Below, one piece after another: positions 12,230 through 58,063 of a DNA stretch of 64,000 bases; position 1 is the first letter of the stretch, and the number at the start of each line of letters is the position of its first letter. This DNA comes from Robiginitomaculum sp. (GTDB lineage Bacteria; Pseudomonadota; Alphaproteobacteria; Caulobacterales; Maricaulaceae), in contig NVWK01000002.1 of NCBI GenBank assembly GCA_002733605.1, forward strand, positions 62,001 to 126,000, read 5' to 3'. The translations under genes and the position numbers were made by a program. The notes under the pieces are model-generated. The model was not told the DNA's origin, did not search any database, and saw only the letters and a list, made by a program, of their open reading frames with translations.

Positions 12230-12252
12230 AGCCATAAAATTTGGATTTTATG

Positions 12253-12286: not shown

Positions 12287-12290
12287 TTAC

Positions 12291-13103
12291 ATGCCTCTAT
12301 TATGGAAACCGAATATGCCCCGCATTATTGCTAAACAAGATAGCCTTAACGATATCAACGGAAATTTCGAGCAACACGCGCTTGAGTTTCCTGTATTTCT
12401 CAATAGCGTCCCTAAATGCGGGTCACATCTTGTACGAAATGTTTTCAGAATGTTTGTGCCGGTTGCAGAGCAATATGACAGTGTATTTATTCAAATCCCT
12501 GTCCTTGAACAACACCGGAACGCCTTTAACCCCAACCAGCCACGGCTAAGTTGGGGGCATTTGCTTTTTGCCGATGACGCCGCCATTTACCTGAAGCATA
12601 CCCGTCATATTCTTTTAGTCCGTGATCCCTATAACTGGGTTTTGGCACGCGCTCGCTTTTTTCTATCCGATAACTTTCAAGGCGGGCTGGAGCATTTGAA
12701 AAACGGGAATGCCGCCATTGATGAAATATTGAATATGATGATTTTCGGGATTTATCAAAAAGTACCGGCATTACAGGAAATATTTGAAAACAACGCTCTG
12801 GCATGGATGGGCACAAAAGCCAAAATTGTCAAATATGAAGACGTGCTCTCACATATAAAAAATATCGAGAGTGACGCGACCGATTTGTTTTTTAAAGACC
12901 TGTTTGACCATTGCGGGATGGTACGGCCCGATGACTGGCGTGAACGGGTGCGTATTGGATCCGATCGCAAACAAAGCGCGACTGCGCGTGAAAATCTGGA
13001 CATGGCGACCGAAAAACTCATACCGGATGTTTTGCCAGACATGCAAAAGAAGCTCGTCAATGTCGCAGCGCCGGGTTTGCGTGAAATTCTGGGCTATAAA
13101 TAG
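12291..13103 (+). CDS. Sulfotransferase-like protein
   Basis: 270 aa from ATG 12291; ATG 12315 (MPRIIAKQ) is an alternative start. FLNSVPKCGSHLVRNVFR resembles the 5'-phosphosulfate loop (PKSGTTW type) of PAPS-dependent sulfotransferases. HILLVRDPYNWVLARARFFL resembles the 3'-phosphate-binding RDPxxxxxS block, although the Ser position is changed. The family transfers sulfate from PAPS to a hydroxyl or amino group. It lies between a TonB receptor and a tryptophan halogenase, which hints at tailoring or uptake of a natural product, but this is only context. Its stop is two bases from the stop of the convergent halogenase gene. Confidence 0.7.
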   Translation: MPLLWKPNMPRIIAKQDSLNDINGNFEQHALEFPVFLNSVPKCGSHLVRNVFRMFVPVAEQYDSVFIQIPVLEQHRNAFNPNQPRLSWGHLLFADDAAIYLKHTRHILLVRDPYNWVLARARFFLSDNFQGGLEHLKNGNAAIDEILNMMIFGIYQKVPALQEIFENNALAWMGTKAKIVKYEDVLSHIKNIESDATDLFFKDLFDHCGMVRPDDWRERVRIGSDRKQSATARENLDMATEKLIPDVLPDMQKKLVNVAAPGLREILGYK

Positions 13104-13105
13104 TC

Positions 13106-14737
13106 TTAAGCCTTACCCCAACCTGGAGGAGGCGTGTGCATTTCATATTGGTGCATGCCCATAACCTGATTTAACCAGATATGGTGAGGCGGTAATTTTT
13201 GTCGCGCCCCGTGGAGTCGTTGGATAATAAATTCGGGCACACGTACAGGATGGCGTACATGCCCCGGCTTATTTTCAAACTCCGGGCCACGAAAATCCAT
13301 ACCATATAAAATCGCTTCATAGCTTTCATGGTTCCATAGACCCGCCGTGTCTATCGGGCGGCGAACATCCCCGTGCCCCGATAGACTGGCAGACGTTTGC
13401 CCCGGGAAAAATTGATCATCAAAGTCTGCCGTCGATGGCAGTTTCAACTTCCAAAACTCCAGTTTTGCCTGCAAACGGTCCGTAATATGTTCCGGTTTTT
13501 GCACTTCTTTCCAAAAATCCGTATCTGTGCGTCGGCTCAGACAATAATGCATATTGATGAAATCGAGAATTTCATAAAACCGGTTTGTCAAAATCCGGTT
13601 AAACCGAAAGGCCATAGCCTCCATAGCATTTTGGGTGAACGGAAAATGTTCGGCCAACATAACCGCTGCCAAATCACACAAATATATACCGGTAGATTCA
13701 AGCGGTTCAATAAACCCGCCCGAAAGGCCAACAGCAATACAATTTCCCTTCCAAGCCTGTTCTCTACGTCCGACCTTGAAATTGATAAACTTCGTCTCGT
13801 ATGCACCACTGTGCGCCCCCTCATACGCATGCAATTCTTTTTGGGCCTGCTCTTCGGTAATAAACGCACTTGAATGCACATAGCCGATAGAGCGCTGGAT
13901 ACTCATAGGGATATCCCATATCCAGCCCGCAGACTGGGCCGTTGCTGTGGTGTATGGCCGCACTTGGCTTGGAAAATAATCGTCATACGGGATGTGCATA
14001 ACGGCGGCACGGTCACAAAGAAGCCATTGAGAACAATCTTCAAATCCAACCCCCAAAGCTTTTTCCATGAGATGCGCCGAAAACCCGGTGCAATCAATAA
14101 ACAGGTCGGCACTCAACGTTTTCCCGCAAGCTGTTTGCACGCTCTTAATATGCCCATTTTCTTGAATGTTCGTCTTCGTAACATTTGCGAGCAAATGTTT
14201 CACACCTTTTGGCACTGAAAAATCACGTAGATAATTGGCAAATTTGGCGGCGTCCATATGGTACGCATATTTTAACTTAGTGCCAAAATCCCACTCCCCC
14301 AACATTTGCGGCGCCAACCCCATTTCGCAAATCATAGCTTGTGCAGACACGGTTTCGGTAAACGGTATTTTACGGTCACTACCAATCCAATCCTGTGCAG
14401 ACCGGTCAATCGGTCCGGGACGGTAACGACTAAAAGGATGGTGATAAAACTCACCTTCGTTGTTCAGCCAGTTTGCATATTTAATAGATTGCTTAAATGT
14501 TGCATTCGTAGCCTTCATAAACTCTCGTTCATTTAAGCCAATAACCCCTAAAATATGACCAATAGAAGGAATGGTGGCTTCGCCGACAGAAATACTGGGA
14601 ATATCCGGAGATTCAACGAGCGTGATATCTATATTTTTCTCTGTCCCTTTTTTGTTCAAGGCCCCATTCAGATAAGCAGCCATAATCCAACCCGCAGATC
14701 CGCCGCCGACAATAAGTACTTTTTTTACATCAGGCAT
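13106..14737 (-). CDS. FAD-dependent tryptophan halogenase family protein
   Basis: 543 aa from ATG 14737, which puts the FAD-binding KVLIVGGGSAGWIMAAYL at residue 4; GGGAG lies 11 bases upstream. A TTG six codons earlier is also possible. It carries the halogenase signature WIWDIP (W-x-W-x-I-P). SIKYANW holds the position of the active-site Lys that forms the chloramine in PrnA. EPLESTGIYL holds the catalytic Glu. These enzymes oxidise chloride or bromide with FADH2 and O2 and halogenate an indole ring; a separate flavin reductase is needed and is not seen here. In Caulobacterales-type genomes such genes often sit beside TonB receptors and may act on substrates other than free tryptophan. The key residues suggest an active enzyme. 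Confidence 0.9.
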   Translation of the reverse strand: MPDVKKVLIVGGGSAGWIMAAYLNGALNKKGTEKNIDITLVESPDIPSISVGEATIPSIGHILGVIGLNEREFMKATNATFKQSIKYANWLNNEGEFYHHPFSRYRPGPIDRSAQDWIGSDRKIPFTETVSAQAMICEMGLAPQMLGEWDFGTKLKYAYHMDAAKFANYLRDFSVPKGVKHLLANVTKTNIQENGHIKSVQTACGKTLSADLFIDCTGFSAHLMEKALGVGFEDCSQWLLCDRAAVMHIPYDDYFPSQVRPYTTATAQSAGWIWDIPMSIQRSIGYVHSSAFITEEQAQKELHAYEGAHSGAYETKFINFKVGRREQAWKGNCIAVGLSGGFIEPLESTGIYLCDLAAVMLAEHFPFTQNAMEAMAFRFNRILTNRFYEILDFINMHYCLSRRTDTDFWKEVQKPEHITDRLQAKLEFWKLKLPSTADFDDQFFPGQTSASLSGHGDVRRPIDTAGLWNHESYEAILYGMDFRGPEFENKPGHVRHPVRVPEFIIQRLHGARQKLPPHHIWLNQVMGMHQYEMHTPPPGWGKA

Positions 14738-44780: not shown

Positions 44781-44842
44781 TGTCCGAGGTCAGCGCCTAT
44801 GGCACAGATTTAGGTCTGTGCCATAGGCGCTGACCTCGGACA
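44781..44842. repeat. Long perfect palindrome, 28-bp arms
   Basis: Left arm 44781-44808 and right arm 44815-44842 are exact reverse complements around the six-base loop TTTAGG. It directly adjoins the 15-bp inverted repeat. Single arms or central parts recur, with mismatches, at 27,465, 30,171, 39,192, 43,354 and 44,625. It behaves like a dispersed palindromic element (REP- or MITE-like). No coding capacity is seen. Confidence 0.8.
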
Positions 44843-44905: not shown

Positions 44906-44924
44906 CTGGAGCGGGCGATGAGAT
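44906..44924 (+). other. Left attachment core (att) of the island
   Basis: CTGGAGCGGGCGATGAGAT is identical to 57,988-58,006. After it the sequence leaves the tRNA match (ACCTAC instead of TCGAAC), which marks the limit of the duplicated core. Confidence 0.85.
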
Positions 44925-44997
44925 ACCTACGAAAAACCCGGAAACCCTTGTTTTATTGCATGTTTTTAATCTGCAACACATTGGTTGTGTACACATT

Positions 44998-45018
44998 TGT
45001 GTAGCAGATTGTGTAGCA
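44998..45018 (+). promoter_or_regulatory. Probable integrase arm sites, left end
   Basis: Two direct TGTGTAGCA boxes (44998-45006 and 45010-45018), preceded by a TGTGTACAC variant at 44,986. The same box and a TGTGTACAA variant occur at the right end (57,916-57,937). Confidence 0.55.
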
Positions 45019-45140
45019 AAAGTCACCTATTTTTCAACTAAAATTATCCACGTCTAAATATATTTCACACCTTGATGATATTCAAAATTCTGCTTCCTTC
45101 GTGACTGAGCCAAGTGCATTCAAACTAAGAGGAGACGAGA

Positions 45141-45740
45141 ATGCTTAATATTATAACGCATCACCAAGCACCGAAAGAAAAGATGTTATCGGGAAATCCA
45201 GATGAAGCTGTTAGCTTTGTATCCAAATTTAACGTCGGGTTACCCAACCATATTTTTACTATTGATCCCAAAACAAATAAAATTTTAGCAAAAACATTTG
45301 AACATCACGAAAACGAAAAATTACGCCAGTATATTTTTGACGGCATGGGGATACTAAATTTCTACTTCCTACCCAATCGGCCAACCGATGGATTCAAAAA
45401 CAAAAAACCTAAAAAAAGCGACATCCAATATGCCACCCATTTGTATGTAGATGTTGATGACCCAAGCCCTGAAACCCTCAACAAAATTCAATCGCATTCG
45501 CCGCCACCATCAATAGTAATTTTTTCTGGGGGTGGGTATCAAGCGTTTTGGGCACTAAACACTCCCTGCTCTAATTTTATGCAAATCGAAAGTACCAACA
45601 AGTCAATCGCAGTGCGCTTAGACGGAGACCATTGCCACAATGTGGATCGTATCATGCGAATTCCCGGCACTATAAATATGCCTAATGCAAAAAAACAAGC
45701 AAGCGGGCGCATACCAACATTAGCTTATGAGGTAAAATAA
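45141..45740 (+). CDS. RepB-like DNA primase domain protein
   Basis: 199 aa from ATG 45141, with AGGAG seven bases upstream. Blocks YATHLYVDVDDPSPETL, SIVIFSGGGYQAFWAL and LDGDHCHNVDRIMRIPGTIN match the RepB/archaeo-eukaryotic-type primase domain found in plasmid and phage replication genes. The acidic DVDD pair should bind metal. It lies one base before the VapE gene, and the two together normally make a primase-helicase replication module. This suggests the element replicates after excision. Confidence 0.8.
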   Translation: MLNIITHHQAPKEKMLSGNPDEAVSFVSKFNVGLPNHIFTIDPKTNKILAKTFEHHENEKLRQYIFDGMGILNFYFLPNRPTDGFKNKKPKKSDIQYATHLYVDVDDPSPETLNKIQSHSPPPSIVIFSGGGYQAFWALNTPCSNFMQIESTNKSIAVRLDGDHCHNVDRIMRIPGTINMPNAKKQASGRIPTLAYEVK

Positions 45741-45741
45741 A

Positions 45742-47367
45742 ATGACCAGTCCATTGAAAACTTATGATATCACCGATTTTGCACCAATAGAAAATATTAT
45801 ACTATTCCCGATAGATGATCATTCAGCTTCCGAAGTTAAGAAAATGACGATCGAAGAGCTAGACTTACAAATTCCCGACCAAATACATAAGCTAATTAAG
45901 CTCGGTGACGACCCTATACATCCACGTTACTCAAAGAACCCAAAGTACAAATCTCGTAGCGAATGCACTTGGAAAGTAATGACTGCATTGGCAAAAATGA
46001 AACTTAGCATCACGTCAATAGCTGGAATTTGCATCAACCCTGAATACGGTATCTCTGAAAGGTTCTTAGAAAAAAACCAGCCTGCAAAAGAAGCCTTTCG
46101 GGAGGCCAAGAAAGCGACAGTCGTGACTTCAGGTGAATGGCCAGATATCACCCAATACAATAAACCAAAAGCAACTATGCTAAACGCCTATACAGGCATT
46201 AAGCGTTTAGAAGTTACCTGTTCACATAATATTTTTCGCAATCGTAAATTCGTAACAGCAGGTTTCTTAGGTGAATATTCTGGGGAAATCTCCGATAAAA
46301 CTTTAATCACTTTGCGCAAAAAAATCATCGATACCTTTGGGTTCGATCCTAAGAAAGAAAACCTAGGAGATGCTATTGAAACATTATGCTACGAAACCCC
46401 CTATCACCCGATACGAACTTATCTAAACAGTTTAACTTGGGACAAAACTCCAAGAATTAAGGACTTCTTACACACCTATCTAGGAGCAAAGCAAACCGAG
46501 TTAAACCAAGCCATCTCGACAATTATGTTCATAGCCGCCGTTCGTAGAATACGAAAACCTGGGTGTAAATTTGATACAATGGTCGTACTAGAAGGCAAGC
46601 AAGGCAGTGGTAAGTCTACAGCCTTACGCATTTTAGCGGGTAACGACAATTTCTCAGATCAGGAAATCATTGGACTAGACAGCAAAACACAAATGGAGTT
46701 GCTTGAGGGTGTATGGATATACGAAGCTTCTGAACTATCGGGTTTGAAACATACCGAAGTTGCAAAAATGAAATCGTTCTTATCACGTACTGAAGATCGG
46801 GGTCGACCAGCATATGCAAGATACAAGGAAAACACACCGCGACAATCAATCATAATTGGTACAACTAATGACACCGTATATTTGAAAGATAGAACAGGTA
46901 ATAGACGGTTTTTACCAGTAGAAACCCATGCAATTGATTTGGCAGCTATTGAGAAAGACAGAGATTTACTCTGGGCAGAGGCGGTTGCTTTGGAGGCACA
47001 AGGACAAAGCATTATCTTGCCAAAAGCGTTATGGCATGATGCTGGATTGGAACAGCACGCGCGATTACTTGAAGACCCATGGCTAGAAGCCTTAGAGGAT
47101 GTCCAAGGCACCCAATGTGGGGAAAAATGGCGTGTATCAAGCAACACACTGCTAATAGAATATTTACAAATGAAATCGGCATTTTCCCAAGTTCATCACT
47201 CAAAACGACTTGCTGAGTGCATGAACGACCTGGGATGGAACGGCCCCAAAAAACTGCGTATAAACGGAATGTCGGTACGCGGCTATGAGCGTGACACACC
47301 AGTGCCACAAAACAACGAACCCAGTATACTTGTACCATCTGTTCCAGATGTTCCATATGAACTTTAA
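45742..47367 (+). CDS. VapE-family replicative helicase/ATPase
   Basis: 541 aa. The N-terminal 200 residues are poorly conserved, including a segment YSKNPKYKSRSECTWKVMTAL like the helix region of primase-linked proteins. Then comes the VapE domain: Walker A EGKQGSGKSTAL, Walker B GVWIYEASELSG, sensor region GTTNDTVYLKDRTGNRRFLPV. Next come LLWAEAVALEAQGQSIILP and a C-terminal winged-helix part. VapE proteins are SF3-like helicases of phages, satellites and islands. The gene starts one base after the primase gene. The C-terminus is low-complexity (SVPDVP). Confidence 0.88.
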   Translation: MTSPLKTYDITDFAPIENIILFPIDDHSASEVKKMTIEELDLQIPDQIHKLIKLGDDPIHPRYSKNPKYKSRSECTWKVMTALAKMKLSITSIAGICINPEYGISERFLEKNQPAKEAFREAKKATVVTSGEWPDITQYNKPKATMLNAYTGIKRLEVTCSHNIFRNRKFVTAGFLGEYSGEISDKTLITLRKKIIDTFGFDPKKENLGDAIETLCYETPYHPIRTYLNSLTWDKTPRIKDFLHTYLGAKQTELNQAISTIMFIAAVRRIRKPGCKFDTMVVLEGKQGSGKSTALRILAGNDNFSDQEIIGLDSKTQMELLEGVWIYEASELSGLKHTEVAKMKSFLSRTEDRGRPAYARYKENTPRQSIIIGTTNDTVYLKDRTGNRRFLPVETHAIDLAAIEKDRDLLWAEAVALEAQGQSIILPKALWHDAGLEQHARLLEDPWLEALEDVQGTQCGEKWRVSSNTLLIEYLQMKSAFSQVHHSKRLAECMNDLGWNGPKKLRINGMSVRGYERDTPVPQNNEPSILVPSVPDVPYEL

Positions 47368-47488
47368 GGTTCCAGAAATTCAGCATTTAAATATATTGGC
47401 GGAACTCGCGGAACATATGGAACAAGATTGTTCTCGAGATTGTGATCGTGGCTACTTGCTTAAATTTCGTGTTTCTCCTCAGGAGTAG
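47357..47488 (+). CDS. Possible small protein overlapping the end of vapE
   Basis: 43 codons from ATG 47357, overlapping the VapE stop by 11 bases, starting MNFKVPEIQHLNILAELAEH. It has a predicted helix and a Cys pair (CSRDCDRG). The overlap would allow translational coupling, but no ribosome-binding site of its own and no known family are seen. It could equally be chance. Confidence 0.2.
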   Translation: MNFKVPEIQHLNILAELAEHMEQDCSRDCDRGYLLKFRVSPQE

Positions 47489-47619
47489 ACATCACAGAAG
47501 TTGTGCGAACTCCCCATTAACGGTCACAACCGAAACTGTACATTTATCCCCTTAGCGGACATTAGCTCAGTTGCTTAATTAATCAAATTTTTGGGTCCAG
47601 ATACTATAAATTGGGCCGA

Positions 47620-48255
47620 TTAACCTTCGGGCCAGTAGCTCTCAGGAGTCGGCAAGAAAACACACTCATAGGTATTTTTGATACCGTTCTCACCATTATT
47701 CGATTTTCCTATTAAGTCTCTCAGACGTTTTTTTAAATCTTTTTCGTTATCAGTAGCTAACTTCCCAATGCTTGGTGCCTTGACATCATTACGAATATCC
47801 AGAGCGAGACGAGAGACATATTCCCCAAACCCTGCATAAAATATCTGACGGTGGGAAAAAAAGTGATTAAATTCATAATCATGTTCCCAAGCATCGGAAA
47901 GGTATTCCTGTATTGAGTCTTCAATTGGAGCCAAGACAAACAGCTTATTAAGGTATTTTGGCTTAATATATTCTATATTCTTCATATCATCGAACCTCGG
48001 CATGGGCGCTAAACATGTTGTCACGTTACGCGGATGAAGCTCAGAAGGATTGTCACCTCCGTCGAACACACCCTCATCATAAGATACTTCCAAACATTGC
48101 CTTGCGATACGTTCTAGAATTGATGCAATGTGCACTGAAATAAGCAAGCAAATTTGTCTTTGGTTTTTCCACCACTTATAGATTGTGAAGGACAATCCAG
48201 CTGCGGCAATTAAGACGGTTAATGCTGCTATCCATGTAGATATCACAATCGTCAT
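47620..48255 (-). CDS. Unknown membrane-anchored protein of the island
   Basis: 211 aa from ATG 48255, which follows GGGGG by four bases; an ATG 90 bases upstream would add a second hydrophobic stretch. One membrane helix (ISTWIAALTVLIAAAGLSFTIY) lies near the N-terminus, followed by a cytoplasmic part with helices (LLISVHIASILERIARQCLE; HFFSHRQIFYAGFGEYVSRL). No family is recognised. It stands between the replication genes and the serine recombinase, on the opposite strand to the former. Membrane-tethered unknown proteins in such positions are often defence cargo, but nothing specific supports that here. Confidence 0.6.
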   Translation of the reverse strand: MTIVISTWIAALTVLIAAAGLSFTIYKWWKNQRQICLLISVHIASILERIARQCLEVSYDEGVFDGGDNPSELHPRNVTTCLAPMPRFDDMKNIEYIKPKYLNKLFVLAPIEDSIQEYLSDAWEHDYEFNHFFSHRQIFYAGFGEYVSRLALDIRNDVKAPSIGKLATDNEKDLKKRLRDLIGKSNNGENGIKNTYECVFLPTPESYWPEG

Positions 48256-48374
48256 ACAGCCCCCAATAGAGAAAAACAGAATGCCTTGAATAACAGGGGC
48301 AATGTGAAAAATACAACTATAGCATATAGTTTTATTGAATTTCAAATCTAAAATTTCAAGCTCTAAGTGCTCTC

Positions 48375-48406
48375 TAACGTCCGCTCTGCCTCCAGCAGCA
48401 GACCTT
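48375..48406 (+). repeat. Island intergenic repeat, copy a
   Basis: TAACGTCCGCTCTGCCTCC and following bases (AGCAGCAGAC). The same pattern occurs at 53,394 and in part at 53,324, and inverted at 50,376. Confidence 0.5.
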
Positions 48407-49043
48407 ACACACGATCAAGGAGCCGAGCTACCGAGGTTTTGTACCAAATTCCATCTTTTCTGGTTTTTATACCTCCTTCATTGAGTACGCGTGCAATTGA
48501 TTGCAAATTCATATCTTGTGTTATTCCCAAGCGGTCAAAGCTCATCGCAATAGCTTGTGCAAACAATTCAGCTTCCTTCCTGTTCTTTATTGCTAGCACC
48601 TTCCCATTTCTCCCAAGTTCAACACCTCGCTCCTTAGCCGCCGCCAACGCCGCCTTAGTCCGTTCACTAATCCGTCTACCCTCTTCCTCCGCCATAGCAG
48701 CGTAAACATGCAACATAAACCGATCTGCGTTAGGCATGTCGACGGCAAGGAAGTCTACACCCGTTTCCATAAGTCCAGATATGAAGTGCACATTACGGGC
48801 TAGGCGATCAAGCTTGGCTATGACCAATTTTGCTTTGTGTTTGCGGCAATAATCTATGGCCTTTTCCAGTTCAGGACGTTTTGACTTCTTACCGCTCTCT
48901 ATCTCTATGAACTCTTTGTATGACTGACCATCAAGTAAAGTCTCTATAGCTTTACGTTGCGCATCAAGCCCCAAGCCTGACATGCCTTGCCTTAGGGTGC
49001 TAACTCGGAGGTAGGCGGCTGGAGGAGCCTTATAGCCGCCCAT
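48405..49043 (-). CDS. Serine recombinase (resolvase/invertase family)
   Basis: 212 aa from ATG 49043, with GGGGGG five bases upstream; TTG 49055 is the alternative. The catalytic domain has AYLRVSTLRQG (nucleophile Ser in R-V-S-T), VIAKLDRLARN and MAEEEGRRISERTKAAL. A short C-terminal HTH follows (NLQSIARVLNEGGIKTRKDG). It is the size of resolvases and invertases, not of large integrases. It may resolve element dimers or invert a segment; no obvious recombination site was found nearby. The gene downstream of it in the operon direction is the unknown membrane protein. Confidence 0.88.
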   Translation of the reverse strand: MGGYKAPPAAYLRVSTLRQGMSGLGLDAQRKAIETLLDGQSYKEFIEIESGKKSKRPELEKAIDYCRKHKAKLVIAKLDRLARNVHFISGLMETGVDFLAVDMPNADRFMLHVYAAMAEEEGRRISERTKAALAAAKERGVELGRNGKVLAIKNRKEAELFAQAIAMSFDRLGITQDMNLQSIARVLNEGGIKTRKDGIWYKTSVARLLDRV

Positions 49044-49100
49044 ATTGCCCCCCAAGCTTCGGGTAACAGATAAAGGAGGGTTTGTGTGTTACCGAGCGGC

Positions 49101-50192
49101 TCATAGGTGCTTCTCCGTCATTGGGTGAGCATTCATGGATGTTTGTAATATTCGCATCCCGTCACTGATTTGAGCCGCCGTGAGGCCATAGCCAACCTGA
49201 TCAGCTTGGTGTCTTATCCTGTCTGTTACATCCCAAGCTTGGCGGTCAGTACACATTGCAGATAAGACTTTGAAACACAGTTCTCTTAAGAGTGCATTCC
49301 GATCTGTCTTAGAGATCACAGTGTGCAGATATTCACGGAGTTCGGGAGATTGATTGACCAACCAATATAGATACCGCCGCCCTGCTCTTGTATGGCCATC
49401 AAAAGCATACCGTGGGATTGTGCTTATCTGGTATGTGGAGAGATCGGTATCTGATTTTGCACCTAGCGGTTCTGATACTTGCCGCCAATCATTCCAGAGT
49501 AATGGTATGATCGCGGGGAGTATGGTTCCTGATCGTGACACCCCTACTCTACAGATCGCAAGAACATGCTCGGGGCATTGCTCTGTATCAAAGCATGTGA
49601 AGAAACGTTCTACATCCCCCTTACGTCGATACAACACCTCAGATGCAAACTTGTCAGTGCCAAGAGCATACCATGCCGCTATGACGCGGTGGGAAAATGG
49701 TTCAGACAATGCGTTTGCCATAGACATTACGGTCTCGACAGATGCATTTGCCAACGCCTCCCGAATAGCTTCAAGGGAAACATCGTGATCCACTATGGTT
49801 ACAATATCGTCTGTCACCCTGTTTTTGGGTACAGTGCAGAGTTGGCGGATGAGATACGAAGCTATTTTCCACTCACCCCCTACTTTTTCCCTCCACCGTT
49901 TTGACCCCGCCGCCGCCGTGACCATCCCACAAAGGTCGAAATCACCGAAGCTAATATCTTCCCACGCAATCACACACAGTCGCCGCCAGAACATACGATA
50001 GTCAAGGTTCAGTAGATATTGCCCTGCCCGTAGAGCCTCCTGTGTATCGCTCCGCCTTATGGCCTTTTGCAATAGGCTCATGGCGATCCAGCGTTCTGGT
50101 AGAGATTGATATTCGTGTTGTGGTGGTTTGTATGTGGCTAATCTATCAGCCAGTTGTTCACACAGGTATTCAGTCCAAATGTTATCGAGCAA
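49101..50192 (-). CDS. Protein resembling the C-terminal part of RarA/MgsA, without ATPase domain
   Basis: 363 aa from TTG 50192, supported by GGGAGG six bases upstream. The block LLQKAIRRSDTQEALRAGQY and FWRRLCVIAWEDISFGDFDL is very like the RarA/MgsA/WRNIP1 C-terminal helical region (KAIRGSDxDAALYW...RRLxxIASEDIGxAD), which forms tetramers on clamp-loader-like ATPases. There is no Walker A or B, so the ATPase half is absent. The remaining 250 residues are helical and unrecognised. It may act as a partner or decoy of the host replication-restart machinery. It lies between the serine recombinase and the helicase-exonuclease fusion. Confidence 0.6.
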   Translation of the reverse strand: MLDNIWTEYLCEQLADRLATYKPPQHEYQSLPERWIAMSLLQKAIRRSDTQEALRAGQYLLNLDYRMFWRRLCVIAWEDISFGDFDLCGMVTAAAGSKRWREKVGGEWKIASYLIRQLCTVPKNRVTDDIVTIVDHDVSLEAIREALANASVETVMSMANALSEPFSHRVIAAWYALGTDKFASEVLYRRKGDVERFFTCFDTEQCPEHVLAICRVGVSRSGTILPAIIPLLWNDWRQVSEPLGAKSDTDLSTYQISTIPRYAFDGHTRAGRRYLYWLVNQSPELREYLHTVISKTDRNALLRELCFKVLSAMCTDRQAWDVTDRIRHQADQVGYGLTAAQISDGMRILQTSMNAHPMTEKHL

Positions 50193-50526
50193 TGCTGCCT
50201 CCCATAAATACGGGAGAGCAAAACGATTTCACCCCGAACGAAGCGTAGCTAAAGGGCGGGCGTGGGCAAGAAAAAATATAGGGAAATTCGGCGGTCTAAT
50301 GAAAACATCAAGCCTGTATAAAGATACCTTTTCCCCAATAGCAGACATTATCCTTATGCACTGTTAGGCCTTCAGTGGGGGCAAAGCGGACATTAAATTA
50401 CGACAGAAGGTTCTTCCTGTTCTTTTTAGCGAATGCCTACTTTAGGGTTGATATTCGCCAAAAGCTAATTGCTACGTATTCTCGGAATAGAAACCACAAG
50501 TACGATGGTAACTAAGAGCTAAGCCG
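50193..50526. other. Gap with repeat, no gene seen
   Basis: Contains an inverted copy of the island repeat at 50376-50395 (GGGGGCAAAGCGGACATTA) and a small hairpin CTCCC...GGGAG near 50,200, inside the leader of the leftward gene. Nothing else is recognised. Confidence 0.45.
50376..50395 (-). repeat. Island intergenic repeat, inverted copy
   Basis: GGGGGCAAAGCGGACATTAA is the reverse complement of the TAATGTCCGCTTTGCC pattern at 53,394. A shorter inverted match, AGCGGACATTAG, lies at 47,553-47,564. Confidence 0.45.
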
Positions 50527-53226
50527 TTATTGGGTATTCGCTACGGTTTTTACATAATCGCTCGACACCCAATGTTCTTGATCTTTATTAATTTCTTGTG
50601 GAGGTGAAATCTTATACCATCCGTCTCGCTCGTCGACTATAATGACTCGTTGGCCTCTTAGACTACTACCAATCACCTCACAATCTGTGCTGGGACATTT
50701 GCGCTGTCTCAGCTCACTAGCTGTCACAATTCCTGTTCTTGCAGGTGAGGTCTGAATTTCATTTTCCGTAAGTGCTGATGAATTACGGATTGTTACGGCA
50801 TAATAAGCGATAAATTTTATAGTGTATATACCAATTATGAAAGCACCTAAGCCCAGAATTAAAAGCCCTATCTTGCTCTTTGGTTTTTGGTTTGGTAAGT
50901 TCTTGAGCGCGGTCTGCCCCGACTTCTTATTGGGCTTCTGAGCTCTCACATTTATAGAGCAATCAATACCAAAGTTTGCATCGGGACTCTCTGTGTTCTC
51001 AGGTATTGTTTTTTTTGGTTTGTGTTTGTTTTCCAGTTTTCTTTTAAGCTCCGCCTGCTTTGATTGTTTGTTGGATTTTTCCATAAACTCTTTTGAAAAA
51101 TCATGTGAACTATAAGTAGTTTTCAAATATTTATTTTGAGCCATGAGCACAGCATTATCTATCCCATTTTCACGAAAGTATTTTGGCGTAACCTTCGTTA
51201 GCCTCAAAAGATTGTCTGCTGTCAGCAAAAACTTTCCATCGGTTTCATGAAGCAACATTCTATGAATTTCAGACAGCAGGTGAGTTGTCATTTCTGCATC
51301 GCTAAGTGCTCTATGAGCTTTTCCCTTTGGTAAATTGAACTCTGAAACCAAGTTTCCAAGCTTATAACTCGATAAATTTGGAAAAACGCGGCGAGATAAT
51401 AAAAGGGTACAAATCAAGTCGACTGAAAAATTGCGTGAAATAAGTTTAAGCTCGTTGTTTAAAAATTTACGCTCAAAAGAAGCGTTATGTGCTACTAGCG
51501 GAGTATCGCCTAAAATCTCCATAGCTTCAGATAAAACCTCACGGGAGCTAGGTGCGTTGCGAACCATATTGTCCGTAATACCTGTCAACTCTTGAACGAA
51601 TGAGGGTATGGTTCGCTCTGGATTAATAAGGGATTGGTATCGTTTTATAATCTTACCATTTTGCCAAATTACAAACCCTATTTCAGTGATTCTATCACCA
51701 TAATCAGGATCCAAACCGGTCGTTTCCAAGTCAATGACAGCGAACTTTTGCGGCGAGTGCCCCAATTGCTTTTCGCAAAAATCCTTAAGTTGGTGTGGCA
51801 TATCCAAAATCTTACGAGCACGCGTCATGGCTACATAAAGAAGCCTTAGCTCTTCTTCTTGCCCCTGTAGATTTAACGCATCAGTAGGAAATTCAAAATC
51901 ACTTGAAAGTTTGACGCTGTCCCATTCTAAGCCTTTAGCTTGATGCCCCGTTGTAAGTGACGGGTATGATTTTCCTTCCCTTTTTTTTGAGCTTTTGATT
52001 GCTTTAAGAATAATGTTTGGATCGTTGCTTTCAAATAACTCTACAAATCCTCGAAAAGGATTATCTTCCTCTTTCTTTGCTATTGAGACAACAGCACTCC
52101 ATGAGTTATACCCTTCAAATGCCTGACTCTTCCCCCAAAGACCATCATTCAGGCGAAAGTAATCCTGAACAGATTGTTCGATGTTTTTATTTGGATCTAC
52201 AATATAAAAAGGCTTGTCCGAGGTATATAATTCTACTGCCTTGGCTATTAAAGTAGCATTCTTCCTGAAAATGAACGCATTCGCATCCTGGTCAGAAATT
52301 GTTTCTACACTCGTCCCAGTATCTGAATGAGAGTTTATCCGCTTTTCAACTAACAATGATCTCAGCACTCTATTCGCAAGATTTGATAGGTCATTGCCAA
52401 ATCTAAATGTATTTGTAAGAAAATGTTCTTCGGCTATAATTTCGTGCCTCATCGCATCGACAGCACCGCGCCATGAATATATTTGTTGTTGACTGTCGCC
52501 AACAAATATTTTCTGCCCGCCAAAGTTATCAATTACCTCTAACATAACAGGACTCAAGTCCTGTGCTTCATCAATAAATAAAAAATCATAGTCAAGAACA
52601 GGTAATTTCAGAGACCAGTGTTTCAAATAACCATCATGCCCGAGTGGTAGATCGCTTTCTGGGTTTCCCATCTTTTCCCAAGCACTTTGAGCCGTGGCTA
52701 CCAGTATATCTGCATTTCTTTCCAATACTTCCTGTTCACTTAGGTAAGAAAGATGACCCCAAGGCAAATGTTTCGAGCTAATTTTTTCATCTCTACTGTT
52801 ACAATAATTTTTCAAGACTAGCGAAAGAGTTGTAATTGTTTTGTATTCGGAAAATCCATTTACGCTTGGAATGGGAACAGATTTTTTCAGTAAAGCTCGA
52901 TTTGGAGATTGAAGAAGTTTTTCTTTGGCAAATTTCTCGCTTGCCCATTTCCATGCCAGTGAATGAATAGTTGAGGCATCGATATTATCAGGCATCTTTT
53001 TTCGAGCTTCAGTAGCTATTCGTTTGTTGAAGGCAATGTATAAACCTTTATTTTTTGTCTTTCTTGCTAGATATTCGAGTGTAGTCGTTTTGCCTGTCCC
53101 GGCAAAAGCATGAATTTTTATATTTTTCCCTTTCTTGAAAGCTAAGAGTATATCTTTTTGCTCTTTGGTTGGGTTGAAGGCCGACAAAATAAAAGCTCCG
53201 GATAAGTAAGACAGTGAATTGAACAC
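50527..53226 (-). CDS. UvrD-type helicase / DnaQ-type exonuclease / membrane helix / SH3b fusion
   Basis: 899 aa from GTG 53226 (AGG five bases upstream); TTG 53187 after CCGGAG is an alternative. Residues about 17-510 form an SF1A helicase: FNPTKEQKDIL (Q motif), HAFAGTGKTTT (Walker A), FLFIDEAQDLSP (Walker B), VGDSQQQIYSWRGA, NTFRFG, TTGHQAKGLEWD and YVAMTRARK. Residues about 520-690 form a DEDDh exonuclease: AVIDLETTGLDP (DxE), PLVAHNASFERKFL (D/N position read as N) and HRALSDAEMT. After a basic linker there is one membrane helix (IGLLILGLGAFIIGIYTIKF), then an SH3b domain (ASELRQRKCPSTDCEVIGSS ... GWYKISPP). The helicase resembles Fbh1/UvrD-like proteins. The whole fusion should be anchored in the inner membrane with SH3b outside the cytoplasm. 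I know no described system with this order. Confidence 0.85.
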   Translation of the reverse strand: MFNSLSYLSGAFILSAFNPTKEQKDILLAFKKGKNIKIHAFAGTGKTTTLEYLARKTKNKGLYIAFNKRIATEARKKMPDNIDASTIHSLAWKWASEKFAKEKLLQSPNRALLKKSVPIPSVNGFSEYKTITTLSLVLKNYCNSRDEKISSKHLPWGHLSYLSEQEVLERNADILVATAQSAWEKMGNPESDLPLGHDGYLKHWSLKLPVLDYDFLFIDEAQDLSPVMLEVIDNFGGQKIFVGDSQQQIYSWRGAVDAMRHEIIAEEHFLTNTFRFGNDLSNLANRVLRSLLVEKRINSHSDTGTSVETISDQDANAFIFRKNATLIAKAVELYTSDKPFYIVDPNKNIEQSVQDYFRLNDGLWGKSQAFEGYNSWSAVVSIAKKEEDNPFRGFVELFESNDPNIILKAIKSSKKREGKSYPSLTTGHQAKGLEWDSVKLSSDFEFPTDALNLQGQEEELRLLYVAMTRARKILDMPHQLKDFCEKQLGHSPQKFAVIDLETTGLDPDYGDRITEIGFVIWQNGKIIKRYQSLINPERTIPSFVQELTGITDNMVRNAPSSREVLSEAMEILGDTPLVAHNASFERKFLNNELKLISRNFSVDLICTLLLSRRVFPNLSSYKLGNLVSEFNLPKGKAHRALSDAEMTTHLLSEIHRMLLHETDGKFLLTADNLLRLTKVTPKYFRENGIDNAVLMAQNKYLKTTYSSHDFSKEFMEKSNKQSKQAELKRKLENKHKPKKTIPENTESPDANFGIDCSINVRAQKPNKKSGQTALKNLPNQKPKSKIGLLILGLGAFIIGIYTIKFIAYYAVTIRNSSALTENEIQTSPARTGIVTASELRQRKCPSTDCEVIGSSLRGQRVIIVDERDGWYKISPPQEINKDQEHWVSSDYVKTVANTQ

Positions 53227-53323
53227 AATGCCTAATAGCTTTTAATCGTAATGCAAACTTTTGAAAGCGCAATATTTTAAGGTCCGCTCTGGAGGATCAT
53301 CGTGACTTAAACCTCAAATATTC

Positions 53324-53350
53324 TAACGCCCGCTTTTGCCTCCGGAGAAG
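53324..53350 (+). repeat. Island intergenic repeat, diverged copy
   Basis: TAACGCCCGCTTTTGCCTCC matches copy a at 48,375 with an added T and one change. It lies between the helicase fusion and the zinc-ribbon gene. Confidence 0.4.
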
Positions 53351-53393
53351 AAATTTCTCAACGTCCTGAATTCGCCGAAAATGAGACACTGAC

Positions 53394-53424
53394 TAATGTC
53401 CGCTTTGCCTCCACCAGCAGACTT
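53394..53424 (+). repeat. Island intergenic repeat, copy b
   Basis: TAATGTCCGCTTTGCCTCC and the following ACCAGCAGAC match copy a at 48,375-48,406 with about four differences. Confidence 0.5.
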
Positions 53425-53465
53425 CCTTGCAACCCCAGCAAACAGCATAAGGAAACAGCTCCAAA

Positions 53466-54068
53466 TTACCTCTTAACCATCGATAGCGCTTTCGAACTTT
53501 TCACCACGTATTCTTCAAGCAGCCTCAAGTAAGTGGTAATATGCATTCCCTTTGGGCTTTTGGGAAGCGGTTCCAGCAAATTCTCCGAACCATCTAAGCT
53601 CCGCCTGATCTTGCGGGCTCTTGCAAATAGCCGTGTCCGTTCACACTGATACTGGCTCACATAATGTAGCTTTGTACAATGGCGGCATTTGAAATGATCT
53701 TGCCAATATAAAATCCCAACCCGCTTGTCGCAATCAGGGCAGAGGAACCATTTACGAGTTCCGCCATAATGACACGGCGTCTTCTCCAACACTATTTGTT
53801 GTGAGGTGTTCGTCTGTTCGGCGTTTGGATACTGAATACATAAGAAATTATGACAGGCTTGAAGCTGTATAGCTCCAATAGGGTTTCCGCTTTGCAAGAT
53901 AGTCATTGAGACCGGAACATGGTTGGATAATACGCCCTCTTTATTCAGCACAGATATGTCCAACCGTAGTAAATTGTTCAGCCGTTCTTCTGCTGGCTCC
54001 GCACCAGCATTTGACAAATTCTTAGCATATTCTTCGAAATCATTAGGCAAGCCAATAGATTCGTACAT
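53466..54068 (-). CDS. Zinc-ribbon protein of mobile elements
   Basis: 200 aa from ATG 54068, with GGGAGGT eight bases upstream. The core GGTRKWFLCPDCDKRVGILY and FKCRHCTKLHYVSQYQCERTR form a C-x2-C ... C-x2-C zinc ribbon. I know similar proteins next to integrases in alphaproteobacterial islands (pattern GGxRxWFxCPxCGRRV), all without a known function. The N-terminal part carries RLNNLLRLDISVLNKEG and beta strands. The C-terminal helix (TYLRLLEEYVVKSSKAL) is basic. It probably binds DNA and may control excision or expression. Confidence 0.75.
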   Translation of the reverse strand: MYESIGLPNDFEEYAKNLSNAGAEPAEERLNNLLRLDISVLNKEGVLSNHVPVSMTILQSGNPIGAIQLQACHNFLCIQYPNAEQTNTSQQIVLEKTPCHYGGTRKWFLCPDCDKRVGILYWQDHFKCRHCTKLHYVSQYQCERTRLFARARKIRRSLDGSENLLEPLPKSPKGMHITTYLRLLEEYVVKSSKALSMVKR

Positions 54069-54145
54069 GTTTACCTCCCACTCTACTCCATAATGCAAAG
54101 GCGAACGTTCATGTACAAACGCTTGAAGCCGATAACGCTTCCAAA

Positions 54146-54994
54146 TCAGTAACTAGGCAGAACAGTCTTCAACACCTTACCATCCGGGTCAGTGATCACT
54201 GCACATAAAATATCACCAACAAATATACGATATTGAAAATCCTTATCGTAGGGTGCAGCCATGGTCGCCGAAAAACTTCCACTCCCTTTAAGGATTTTTG
54301 GGCCTTTCAGCTTAAAATAGATACCAACTTGGAGTTTTCCATTGATTTGCTTCGCCTCATCGATTGGAACAGGAATACCAACTGCAGGCCCACTTATATC
54401 TACATTTCCATCCTTCCCCTTAGCTTTGCTTACTACAAAATCTGTAGACCAGTTTTCATCAAACATGTCTTTTTTCTTTCGGTCGTAAACCGCATAAGTC
54501 GTATCAGTAATTGCAACAACACGTGTTGTCGCGCCATATGCATTTGACGCTTCATAACTATCGCCTTCTACAATATCTTTTTTCAATACTATCCCGTGTT
54601 GCTTCAAGGATTGCACTCCGCTTATTCCATACGGTTCACCATTTTTTAACGCATTTCTCCAACCAATTCCAAGATTACTCCAAGCAAATGAAGAAGCCAC
54701 AAACCGTTGATTGTCCGCATCATATTTCACTCGTTTTGGATCCCACACTGACCTGAGAAGCAACGTTTCATTGGCTTTACCTCCAGAAGTCGTTTTTCTA
54801 GCCTCAAACTCTACAGTTGTTTCATACTCCCCCTTTATCGGGGTGCTTTGCTCCAACCTACTATAGGCGAGTTCAACATCCCCAAGAGTAACTAAGCTTC
54901 CTATTTTCACAGGGCATTGAGCATGGCCTATCATAGGCGACAACATAGCGATCGATACACAGCCCCCAACACAACTCATTAAATATCGTTTCAT
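54146..54994 (-). CDS. Unknown exported protein of the island
   Basis: 282 aa with a signal peptide ending MIGHAQ. AAGGAA precedes ATG 54994. The mature part has CPVKIGSLVTLGDVELAYSR, EYETTVEFEARKTT and two strand-rich halves. A Cys near each end of the mature chain (CPVK, DILCAV) could form a disulfide. No family is recognised, though EYETTxEFEAR is reminiscent of small exported proteins with a DUF-type fold. It forms a pair with the exported protein gene 20 bases upstream. It is probably periplasmic cargo. Confidence 0.6.
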   Translation of the reverse strand: MKRYLMSCVGGCVSIAMLSPMIGHAQCPVKIGSLVTLGDVELAYSRLEQSTPIKGEYETTVEFEARKTTSGGKANETLLLRSVWDPKRVKYDADNQRFVASSFAWSNLGIGWRNALKNGEPYGISGVQSLKQHGIVLKKDIVEGDSYEASNAYGATTRVVAITDTTYAVYDRKKKDMFDENWSTDFVVSKAKGKDGNVDISGPAVGIPVPIDEAKQINGKLQVGIYFKLKGPKILKGSGSFSATMAAPYDKDFQYRIFVGDILCAVITDPDGKVLKTVLPSY

Positions 54995-55013
54995 AACAAT
55001 TTCCTTGGTTCAA

Positions 55014-55442
55014 TTAATGGGAGGCCAATACTCGGCACTCTCCAGCCTTGGTACTTAGGCCAACTGGCCGCGCCTTGCGGATGAAGCCGTCGCCGTCATA
55101 CATTCTCAAGGAACCATCACTAGCTACACGGACATATTCACCAAAATCATCATGGATGCGATACGATCCATTTAGCCTGTTGGCGGAGTGAACATTTATA
55201 GGCTGCTCACCGTCTTTTTCTTTTTTGAAGATTTGAAGTCTCTTATATTTACCATCTTTCAGCTTCCAAAGCTCAATGATGTAATCAAGTGTCGGATCGG
55301 TGTAGCTGTATGTGTCACACCATCGTCCGATCCGAGTTGCTCCTTCTAAAGCTAAATCTTGTTTCACCTCAGGAACCGCCAATGCAGTTGCGGGAATCAC
55401 CACGAACCCAATTGCAATCAAACTTGTAAAAATACGCTTCAT
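55014..55442 (-). CDS. Small exported protein of the island
   Basis: 142 aa with a signal peptide (SLIAIGFVVIPATALA); GGCGGAGC precedes ATG 55442. The mature part has a lipocalin-like or META-like beta pattern: EGATRIGRWCDTYSYTDPTL, YIIELWKLKDGKYKRLQIF, LNGSYRIHDDFGEYVRV and LRMYDGDGFIRKARPV. The two Cys (RWCDTY and AGECRV) could pair. I cannot name a family. It lies 20 bases upstream of the other exported-protein gene, so they probably form one operon. Confidence 0.6.
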   Translation of the reverse strand: MKRIFTSLIAIGFVVIPATALAVPEVKQDLALEGATRIGRWCDTYSYTDPTLDYIIELWKLKDGKYKRLQIFKKEKDGEQPINVHSANRLNGSYRIHDDFGEYVRVASDGSLRMYDGDGFIRKARPVGLSTKAGECRVLASH

Positions 55443-55601
55443 GCTCCGCCCTCACCTGTTATGGAATATGACTTTCAAGAACTATCCTTACTTAATTTGC
55501 AATTGATTGCAATTATATTTCGTATTTATAATTTTCCATATTATCACTCCCTCACACCTTTGTCGTGATCCCGTTACCGTTTACGTAAATACGGAGACAT
55601 C

Positions 55602-55934
55602 ATGACAACGCTTAAAGACCTATTCGGCGCACAAGTACGACATTACAGAAACAAAGCAGGTCTCAACCAAACCCAATTGGCGGAACGCGTCGGCGTGACG
55701 ACAGAAATGATAGGGAAGATCGAGCGAGGAACCTCTGGAACCTCCTTTAATACCATCGATAAACTCTGTCGGGAATTAAGAGTGCCCCCTAATGCCCTGT
55801 TTCCCTCCCAAGAGCTTTCTGAGATCAATGAAAGAGGGCCGCTAGGGGATTTGGTGGTTAAACTCTCTAAGCTCAATGAGGAAGAGATTGAGTGGATTTC
55901 TAAGCTCCTAAAGGAAGCTTTAGCGCATCCTTAA
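55602..55934 (+). CDS. XRE-family HTH regulator
   Basis: 110 aa; GGAG lies six bases before ATG 55602. The HTH occupies residues 6-62: FGAQVRHYRNKAGLNQTQLA, RVGVTTEMIGKIERGTSGT and SFNTIDKLCRELRVPPNALF. The C-terminal 40 residues form an acidic helix pair that probably dimerises. It is typical of small Cro/C-type regulators of mobile elements, and could also be a control protein of a restriction system, but no such genes are present. It is divergent from the exported-protein pair and convergent with the integrase. Confidence 0.88.
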   Translation: MTTLKDLFGAQVRHYRNKAGLNQTQLAERVGVTTEMIGKIERGTSGTSFNTIDKLCRELRVPPNALFPSQELSEINERGPLGDLVVKLSKLNEEEIEWISKLLKEALAHP

Positions 55935-56087
55935 ACCACCCTCAAATCTATGTCGCTGTTATATCCACATCTTTGGCAAATCTAATTGTCGTTTCAGCCA
56001 AGTATGCTTAGCTTATTTGACTATTACTCCCGCCAAAGATGAGAATTAAGGCGGACTAAAGTCGTTTGTGATTTCGATTGTCTTTTA

Positions 56088-57902
56088 TCAAACATATAGG
56101 TGGCTAAGGTCGAGTTCTGGGTATGCGAATTTATTCATTTCCTTTTCGAGTTCAGACATAAACTGTCCATCACCATAGTTGCGATTCGCGCCCTTTTCAT
56201 TATTCCAGCCCCCCAAGGCATCAACCCGCTCACTAGATATATCCGCACGTCTTAGTACGTCTCTGAACGTGTGCCTGAATGAATGGAAACTCGTCTTCTC
56301 CGTTTTAGCGCCTATCTGCTCCAGATACCTTGAATATTTAGGAGAGAAATTTTTACTATATCGCACAGCTTTACCCATGACGACCTCAGGGAACAATCTG
56401 GAGTTAGGTTTATTAGACACAGATTTAAGGAATTCAGAAAAACCCAATTTATGCATTTCAGGATTGACAGGTACCTTTCTTAGCGAAAAGGGATTCTTCA
56501 AAAAATTTCCATTTTTGTTATGAATATCAAAATAAACCACCTTACTGTTTTTATCAGATATTATGTCAGAAGTTCTTAGCTGTAGAATTTCTTCCATACG
56601 AAACCCATGGAGAAAAGCGAGTAACGACACCCAATATATTGCATTCCCGCATGGCTTAGATTTATGAAATGCTTTCGAAGAGAAAATAACTCTTAATTGT
56701 TCAAGTGAAAAAGAGTTTCGTAAATCTTTCTTTGAAACGGGGTTAAAGTCTACAGCAACCACCCCATCAACGGGGTTTTTATCAATAAAACCTTCAACCA
56801 TAGCATATTGCATTAAACTCCTCATACTCGAGAGACGCTTATTAACATTTACGGGCTTCATAATACGCCGCCCATGTTTCTTTGCGTCAGCAACAAGCTC
56901 CTCTAAACTCATGTTCTTGGTACGATTGAGTTTTCTGGCATTCGTTGGCATTTTAACCAATATGTCACGTAGATATTTAAAATCCTGTCGGGTGATATCC
57001 CTGATTTGCTTCTTTGAACCAACTTTCTCGATCAAAATATCAAAAGCAGTGCGCATGTCATCAAGAGTCTTTTTATTTGTAATTTTCTCCCGTATTGGTT
57101 CTTTAAAATATTCTTCGATCAACCACTCTAGTGCCTTAGAATTATGGGAAGGTCCATGATTTAATGTGCCTGACTGCTGATAGGCACTATTAAGATTAAA
57201 AAGAGAGATAGTTGGCGTTTTTTTAATCTGTACCCCGAGACGAATTAGTTCTTCTTCTAATAGATGAACTAAGCCCTTACGGATTAACTCCGCAAACAGT
57301 TGGTATTTATCGCTGTTTTTATCAACATGAGCACGAATAGACTCAACTCTTACTTTAGCCTTGGCCTTGGCTTTGCCTATACTTTTTGCTCTTTCTTTTT
57401 CTTTCTCTTTTTCCCACTTTTTTTCTTCTGCCGTTAATGGCGCTCTGGGGTATTTCAAATAAATCAGAACTCGGTCCGTATAACGATGCAGATCACCACC
57501 ATAGCGAAGAAGGTCTCCAGACTTCCACTCAGTCAGTTCCAGACCAAGATCAATAATACGACCTTTTTTTGTATGCTCGTCATAAAATTGCTGAAAATCA
57601 TTTTTAGCTATCTTTTCGAGTTCCCGCTTATACCATCTACGAGCTTCCCACTCCACATCCAAACCATCCAATGATGCAACTTTTTGCTCTTTGGTTTTCC
57701 CCCTCGCAACTGAGAGTTTCTGCTCTACCTCCTGGAGCACATCCGCATATCGCCGCTTTATATCCGCAGCACTACCAGTACCTAACGAGTAGAAAAACTC
57801 TTTCTGACCAAAGTTATCCACAAGTGCAGTAGGTACACGGCGACGAAATTCCCAAATTTCACCCCGTTTTTGAATGTATTTCTGCTTCTTTGCCACACGC
57901 AT
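56088..57902 (-). CDS. Tyrosine-type integrase
   Basis: 604 aa, larger than lambda integrase because of a 250-residue N-terminal part (QKRGEIWEFRRRVPTALVD; DUF6538-like start) rich in Lys/Glu coiled coil (EKKWEKEKEKERAKS). The core-binding region (RDITRQDFKYLRDIL) is followed by the catalytic domain: LHGFRMEEILQLR (Arg I), HSFRHTFRDVLRRA (His-x2-Arg), LGGW, and a Tyr in ANRNYGDG. The gene ends about 1.9 kb from, and starts 86 bases from, the tRNA-Gly att site, with arm-type boxes between. It should insert and excise the island at 44,906-58,006. AGGAG abuts ATG 57902, so the third codon, GTG, may be the real start. Confidence 0.93.
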   Translation of the reverse strand: MRVAKKQKYIQKRGEIWEFRRRVPTALVDNFGQKEFFYSLGTGSAADIKRRYADVLQEVEQKLSVARGKTKEQKVASLDGLDVEWEARRWYKRELEKIAKNDFQQFYDEHTKKGRIIDLGLELTEWKSGDLLRYGGDLHRYTDRVLIYLKYPRAPLTAEEKKWEKEKEKERAKSIGKAKAKAKVRVESIRAHVDKNSDKYQLFAELIRKGLVHLLEEELIRLGVQIKKTPTISLFNLNSAYQQSGTLNHGPSHNSKALEWLIEEYFKEPIREKITNKKTLDDMRTAFDILIEKVGSKKQIRDITRQDFKYLRDILVKMPTNARKLNRTKNMSLEELVADAKKHGRRIMKPVNVNKRLSSMRSLMQYAMVEGFIDKNPVDGVVAVDFNPVSKKDLRNSFSLEQLRVIFSSKAFHKSKPCGNAIYWVSLLAFLHGFRMEEILQLRTSDIISDKNSKVVYFDIHNKNGNFLKNPFSLRKVPVNPEMHKLGFSEFLKSVSNKPNSRLFPEVVMGKAVRYSKNFSPKYSRYLEQIGAKTEKTSFHSFRHTFRDVLRRADISSERVDALGGWNNEKGANRNYGDGQFMSELEKEMNKFAYPELDLSHLYV

Positions 57903-57915
57903 CTCCTATTGCATT

Positions 57916-57937
57916 TGTGTAGCAGATTTGTGTACAA
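57916..57937 (+). promoter_or_regulatory. Probable integrase arm sites, right end
   Basis: TGTGTAGCA (57916-57924) and TGTGTACAA (57929-57937) lie between the integrase start and the att core. The first is identical to the boxes at the left end. Confidence 0.55.
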
Positions 57938-57987
57938 AAAGTAAGTACTTTCAGTAACTTATAAATAAAACAAGGGATTAGGGAGTT

Positions 57988-58006
57988 CTGGAGCGGGCGA
58001 TGAGAT
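57988..58006 (+). other. Right attachment core (att), inside tRNA-Gly
   Basis: CTGGAGCGGGCGATGAGAT covers the CCA end, acceptor 3' strand and part of the T-arm of tRNA-Gly. It is identical to 44,906-44,924. Confidence 0.85.
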
Positions 58007-58063
58007 TCGAACTCACGACCCCAACCTTGGCAAGGTTGTGCTCTACCACTGAGCTACGCCCGC
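57989..58063 (-). tRNA. tRNA-Gly (anticodon GCC)
   Basis: 75 bases including an encoded CCA. On the minus strand the acceptor GCGGGCG pairs with CGCCCGC. The D arm is GCTC...GAGC. The anticodon stem CAACC/GGTTG holds loop TTGCCAA (anticodon GCC), and the T arm is GTGAG-TTCGAAT-CTCAT. All four arms pair. Its 3' end is the attachment site of the neighbouring island and is restored by the element's own copy. Confidence 0.97.

Follow-up and report, generated by a model that had tools for sequence, protein, structure and literature searches.

A predicted membrane-tethered FBH1-like helicase-exonuclease with an SH3b tail in a tRNA-borne mobile element of Robiginitomaculum sp.

Why should a mobile element carry a DNA helicase, an exonuclease, a membrane helix, and an SH3b domain in one polypeptide? 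The question is raised by a gene on the minus strand (50527..53226) of a 64,000-nucleotide stretch of Robiginitomaculum sp. DNA (contig NVWK01000002.1 of assembly GCA_002733605.1, positions 62,001 to 126,000), referred to here as the window. The gene is a single open frame with a GTG start and 899 codons without interruption; its start codon is uncertain, as a clear ribosome-binding site upstream of the GTG is not visible by eye. The GC content is 0.36-0.44 throughout. From the N- to the C-terminus, the protein consists of an SF1 helicase (residues ~17-482), a DnaQ-type exonuclease (497-650), a predicted transmembrane (TM) helix (786-809), and an SH3b domain (842-893), and the proposal of the initial annotation that one 899-residue protein joins these four parts is thus borne out by the open frame, Pfam, and hydropathy. 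Structure prediction, which had been suggested as a check, was informative in part: the AlphaFold model (42-row alignment) is confident for the helicase (pLDDT mostly 80-97) and for a helix at residues 785-819, but its confidence is low over the exonuclease and the greater part of the tail, and therefore the modelled shapes of the exonuclease and SH3b domain support no claim.

The helicase part (residues 17-482; 51781..53178, minus strand) is FBH1-like according to the PDB sequence match, the model and fold search, and Pfam places it among SF1 helicases (UvrD-helicase 1.1e-12, UvrD_C 2.7e-12). The SF1A motifs recognised by Pfam and by direct reading are all intact, i.e., AGTGKTT at residue 42, DEAQD at 219, QQIYSWRG at 247, FRFG at 274, HQAKGLEW at 428, and YVAMTRAR at 464. 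The closest solved relative in the PDB sequence search is human FBH1 (1.6e-43), ahead of UvrD (9e-5) and GajB (4e-4), and the fold search with the model concurs (FBH1 5e-34 vs. 6e-18 for the best UvrD). The earlier label of a UvrD helicase was correct in naming an SF1 helicase with its main motifs, but the protein is closer to FBH1 than to UvrD in both sequence and fold. Its helicase part is like those of human FBH1 and of the phage helicase family phrog_1967, which matches at 1.5e-90, whereas the fusion to an exonuclease, TM helix, and SH3b domain sets the window protein apart, as does the absence of the F-box of eukaryotic FBH1 from the 16 Pfam matches checked, with just 16 residues lying N-terminal of the helicase. 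SF1A helicases move in the 3'-5' direction, and 3'-5' unwinding would be expected of this FBH1-like motor. Among the relatives, five (L025, L042, L043, L195, and P0003) have in common an N-terminal stretch, RP-x-x-S ... EL ... FR, which by eye is absent from the window protein. On the viral contigs L152 and L153, the FBH1-like match (6001-8331) extends over 777 residues for a query span of 468 residues, with about 300 residues inserted in the helicase match, perhaps an intein.

The exonuclease part (residues 497-650; 51277..51738, minus strand) matches Pfam RNase_T at 2.1e-35 and is of the PolC/DinG type. The name DEDDh exonuclease given to it earlier agrees with this match and with four of the five catalytic residues (D499, E501, H638, and D643), but in motif II the expected Asp is replaced by Glu585. 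The motif reads HNASFE here, while F-D stands at this place in five PDB relatives that were compared, out of ten with a match. Scanning relatives' DNA for the motif detected Glu in motif II also in the three permuted actinobacterial fusions found, and Asp in the Leucothrix fusion and in six separate exonucleases. DnaQ-type exonucleases digest DNA 3'-5', and because Glu stands for Asp in motif II, exonuclease activity of the window protein is plausible but not assured.

The putative membrane helix (core residues 786-809; 50800..50871, minus strand) is the sole strong hydrophobic segment of the protein, with a best 19-residue hydropathy mean of 2.24 at residue 788 against at most 1.2 elsewhere, and it coincides with the modelled helix. 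The 15 residues before position 786 comprise four K/R and no D/E, and the 15 residues after position 809 one K/R and two D/E. Because basic residues flank the helix on its N-terminal side, the helicase and exonuclease are predicted to be cytoplasmic and the SH3b domain periplasmic (N-in/C-out). The anatomy and the predicted topology proposed initially, a membrane helix followed by a periplasmic SH3b domain, are upheld by the hydropathy and the charge bias. The SH3b domain (residues 842-893; 50548..50703, minus strand) matches Pfam SH3_3 at 5.6e-10, and the phage amidase family phrog_1794 matches residues 807-897 at 7.7e-9; it also matches weakly (best 6.9e-4) the solved structures of SH3b domains from surface and cell-wall proteins. 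Searched as a separate module, the TM/SH3b tail had no match in plasmids at 1e-3 nor, at 1e-5, in a set of 288 further class genomes, and in phages it had two weak matches that concern the SH3b part only.

The four-part order was not found elsewhere, with scoring confined, in the large genome sets, to the top 2 to 4 candidates of each genome. The genome itself contains the gene and one DnaQ-like match. Among 98 other relatives at 1e-30, seven had an exonuclease match, one had a helicase match, and none had both. In the class, 384 further genomes scored at 1e-45 (top 2 to 4 candidates of each) yielded no full-order relative, and the helicase part alone was found in 0/384 at 1e-20; in the order, 4 of 397 further genomes had a helicase match, by eye without exonuclease or tail. 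The distribution of the helicase in genomes is patchy. In the best 80 of 412 matches of the genome-contig scan, a helicase-exonuclease in the order of the window protein occurred on two Leucothrix MAG contigs only, and the viral scans (0, 77, and 11 loci) gave no alignment past residue 516. Matches reaching at least the 1e-5 threshold were present in 2553 plasmid and 431 phage records; in the best 40 and best 20 of these, respectively, the alignments covered the helicase or the helicase and exonuclease. No plasmid or phage record covers 80% of the query, an unaligned tail being detectable among those 40 and 20 records only. Among the papers listed on helicase/DnaQ/SH3b or membrane anti-phage combinations and on a bacterial FBH1 homologue with phage (10 of 357 for the latter), no title or abstract opening names the helicase/exonuclease/TM/SH3b build. 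Within their scope, these genome and literature searches agree with the earlier remark that a described system with this domain order was not known.

The tail is absent from every relative with a judgeable C-terminus, i.e., from 69 of 74 frames (two run off the contig and three are broken), from the plasmid proteins translated, one of which is a frame stopping early, and from L192-L194. The top 19-residue hydropathy mean near the C-terminus in the 74 frames is 1.74 vs. the 2.24 of the window protein. Relatives without the membrane/SH3b part are the outcome that the initial annotation had named beforehand as refuting its proposal by showing a recent accidental fusion, and the tail could therefore be such a lone event.

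Fusions of the two enzymes without this tail do exist. On Rhodococcus and Dietzia plasmids, one protein likewise unites members of these two enzyme families and has Glu in motif II as here, but in the reverse order, exonuclease-helicase (order and motif II were checked in three, L011, L012, and L018), and TM/SH3b is absent in the two that were translated whole. The Leucothrix fusions L021 and L022 have the helicase-exonuclease order of the window protein and group with it at 95/74 on long branches, but their motif II keeps Asp, and in the complete L022 the place of TM/SH3b is taken by a C-terminal stretch that matches no Pfam family; L021 runs off its contig. These two similar copies occur in one MAG with alike neighbour genes. 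The tree was calculated from 82 candidates, of which seven were dropped by name and four lacked the anchor motifs, leaving 71 rows, which do not include L192-L194. In it, the two whole Rhodococcus/Dietzia fusions (P0001 and P0002) pair at 100/100 outside the 28-row clade of the window protein, and they alone form the permuted group, as L149 has no exonuclease by motif scan. The row of the window protein is long-branched and its exact placement is unsure. Since well-supported branches separate the two kinds of fusion, the tree suggests that the helicase-exonuclease fusion arose twice.

A different kind of C-terminus was recognised in six helicase-only relatives, in which a proline-rich linker is followed by a MinD-like tip, [KRT]G[FLI][LFM]x[RWK][LI][FL]; Rhizobium and Shinella are among the bearers of such tips. 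Because the six tips themselves served to define the pattern, its match among helicases is descriptive and only the background count, 0/1250 non-helicase ORFs in the same DNA, is independent. The E. coli MinD tag KGFLKRLFGG, documented as a membrane tether (PMC5471200; PMC6803595), fits the pattern. The tip sample comprised 74 of 157 loci, near-copies being left out by hand, of which 70 passed the length filter and two were added; a loose form of the pattern was present in 8/12 proteins with a proline fraction of at least 0.15 vs. 5/60 others. Nine rows were labelled as tipped by hand, although L038 fits the loose pattern and is unlabelled. The six tips and three looser, hand-labelled ones share the 28-row clade with the window protein at a support of 100/99. 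All six MinD-like tips fall within one 11-row subclade, with the window protein outside it, and may thus represent one single event; the nearest tip-labelled relative of the window protein, L003, ends in RFWFKFGKST and does not match the pattern. The relatives L192 and L193, whose genomes belong to the same order, have the ending W-x-x-G-[LM]-F, unlike a basic membrane tip; this ending is possibly a short interaction motif. As the tips are possibly one event and L192 and L193 end otherwise, tethering as a trait of the clade is put forward as a hypothesis.

A 13.1-kb element (44906-58006), integrated in a tRNA-Gly (GCC) gene (57989..58063, minus strand), harbours the fusion gene. The element is bordered by a 19-bp repeat, CTGGAGCGGGCGATGAGAT, with the left att copy at 44906..44924 and the right one, which overlaps the 3' end of tRNA-Gly, at 57988..58006 (both plus strand). 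It encodes a tyrosine integrase (DUF6538 and Phage_integrase by Pfam; 56088..57902, minus strand), a RepB-type primase domain protein (45141..45740, plus strand; Pfam 1.5e-10), a VapE-like replication ATPase (45742..47367, plus strand; Pfam 1.1e-71), a serine resolvase (48405..49055, minus strand; Pfam 2e-28), and several genes of no assigned family. The repeats at both borders, the tRNA-Gly, and the integrase confirm that the gene is part of a mobile element, as had been proposed. In its gene content the element is like phage-satellite-like integrative elements, whose tRNA-borne att site, integrase, and primase/VapE are all present. One further gene (47620..48345, minus strand), with a hydrophobic N-terminus by eye, matches the candidate defence family PDC-S67 at 1.6e-13, and the next gene downstream of the fusion (49101..50192, minus strand) weakly matches the C-terminal domain of RarA/MgsA (0.016, under the curated cut-off); these two neighbours have no plasmid matches. 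Of 13 further genomes in the genus, 8 contain the gene that flanks the tRNA, and tRNA-Gly adjoins it in six of the seven such loci scanned, L202 having none within its stretch. These genus loci are short; at L205, a different integrase adjoins the tRNA by eye. Just beyond the left att copy, at 44781-44842, two perfectly complementary 28-bp arms form an inverted repeat around a 6-base loop, and elsewhere in the window (3545-5719) a 724-residue protein has a TIR-like start, both noted by eye.

Defence-type genes adjoin or lie near some members of the clade. L024 is adjoined by a phospholipase (2.4e-113), cyclase (2.4e-126), E1-E2 (2.4e-163), and JAB protein (1.2e-44), a set which we take to be a type II CBASS; L078 is adjoined by a type IIG enzyme (5.2e-272), and near L180 we hand-picked a class II pAgo (5.8e-207) and a Fic protein (7.8e-24). 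Of ten clade-neighbour proteins picked by eye, among them those at L024 and L180 and a type IIG fragment, nine matched at 1e-5, which by its selection is no test. A comparison of the nearest ORFs of at least 150 aa, one to the left and one to the right, at 12 loci of the clade and 10 controls, with a cut-off of 1e-10, gave defence matches for 3/24 clade vs. 0/20 control neighbours, a difference that is not significant (p about 0.15, one-sided, calculated by hand). All these loci were hand-chosen, the neighbours of all 12 clade loci had been seen beforehand, and two of the 24 neighbours (an ORF antisense to a regulator and, by eye, a transposase) were left unscanned and counted as no match. One of the three matches, that at L195, is to MkoA and lies in the C-terminal part of the neighbour. 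At this locus, the large protein with the MkoA match (11084-14533) adjoins the helicase, and a separate DnaQ-like exonuclease (1233-1769) lies 7.4 kb from the helicase-only relative.

In its logic, the window protein appears to resemble SNIPE and Zorya, but by the features tested it belongs to neither. SNIPE is reported as a nuclease that needs its membrane anchor to avoid toxicity, and it is likewise one protein with a single membrane anchor and a nuclease on the cytoplasmic side (PMC13190303). It differs in that its anchor is N-terminal and is combined with DUF4041 and a GIY-YIG nuclease, neither of which is among the Pfam matches of the window protein, and the word "helicase" is absent from the text of PMC13190303. 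Zorya is reported to sense at the envelope and has an envelope-linked part that works with DNA-degrading enzymes (PMC12904381), but it consists of four proteins with a ZorAB motor, and ZorA and ZorB had no match among the nine neighbouring proteins scanned (five of them in the element, the five other element genes being covered by Pfam only). SNIPE offers a precedent for an anchor that guards against self-damage, and Zorya one for DNA degradation coupled to sensing at the envelope. As for Gabija, the matches to GajB are partial only and GajA had none among the nine neighbours scanned. Nhi also combines a helicase and nuclease in one protein, but the window protein matches it at 34.7 bits over residues 210-310 only, not over its full length. 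To our knowledge, Nhi has no membrane part.

We favour, with a probability of roughly 0.38, the reading that the element carries a barrier to DNA entry in the form of an inner-membrane-tethered 3'-5' helicase-exonuclease. The domains and their order, the single membrane helix with its N-in/C-out charge bias, and the element borders are computational results, to which we add by inference the polarity, activity, SH3b ligand, and biological target. The FBH1-like motor and the DnaQ-type exonuclease would degrade DNA from its ends, and as both are 3'-5', their activities would be compatible on one strand. The C-terminal helix would keep the two enzymes at the inner membrane, facing the cytoplasm, where they would spare the nucleoid but meet entering DNA, be it a phage genome or DNA arriving by conjugation or transformation; the periplasmic SH3b domain would place or trigger the enzyme by binding to peptidoglycan or to an envelope protein. 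The tipped clade relatives, the defence-type neighbours, and the PDC-S67 gene in the element agree with the original suggestion of attack on phage DNA or action at DNA entry, but with relatives lacking the tail and a neighbour test that is not significant, the suggestion is left as plausible. In favour of the entry barrier, the six MinD-like tips are a hint of recurring tethering in the family.

The protein could alternatively serve the element itself by aiding its replication, resolution, or transfer together with the RepB-type primase and VapE, the anchor putting this process at the envelope. We regard this as rather unlikely: the primase, VapE, resolvase, and integrase on the same element and the frequent matches on plasmids and phages fit well, but the gene is on the strand opposite to the primase/VapE pair, replication needs no SH3b domain, and no transfer gene was seen among the element genes scanned with Pfam. 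A repair or restriction helicase-exonuclease might also have gained the TM-SH3b tail recently, with little or no functional meaning. The full order seen once, the tailless Leucothrix fusion, and a tail that stayed unmatched in plasmids and class genomes, with the two weak SH3b-only phage matches, would be explained in this way; the frame, however, is intact over all four parts with an even GC content, and the membrane-like tips in some other clade members could mean selection for tethering, so we consider a meaningless tail unlikely. Eukaryotic FBH1 acts on RAD51 as an anti-recombinase, and a membrane-bound counterpart could strip RecA from incoming single-stranded DNA while the exonuclease removes the strand, by which recombination of foreign DNA would fall. 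This would suit FBH1 as the nearest solved relative in sequence and fold and the emergence of single-stranded DNA at the inner membrane in transformation and conjugation, but no link to competence or conjugation was seen at the locus, and such a role seems improbable.

The entry-barrier reading could be extended to the whole clade, in which bacterial FBH1-like helicases would often be membrane-tethered, either by MinD-like tips or, as here, by a TM helix with a periplasmic SH3b sensor, and would form an undescribed class of DNA-entry surveillance enzymes, with the window protein as a self-contained version that both unwinds and digests DNA arriving at the inner membrane. We hold this extension to be doubtful, since the subclade with the MinD-like tips does not include the window protein. 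The tethering idea is testable through the tips of the Rhizobium and Shinella relatives. If the tether is functional, the protein would discriminate between self and foreign DNA by place and not by sequence within one polypeptide, in the manner reported for SNIPE with a motor added, and the scattered family of FBH1-like helicases would gain a function.
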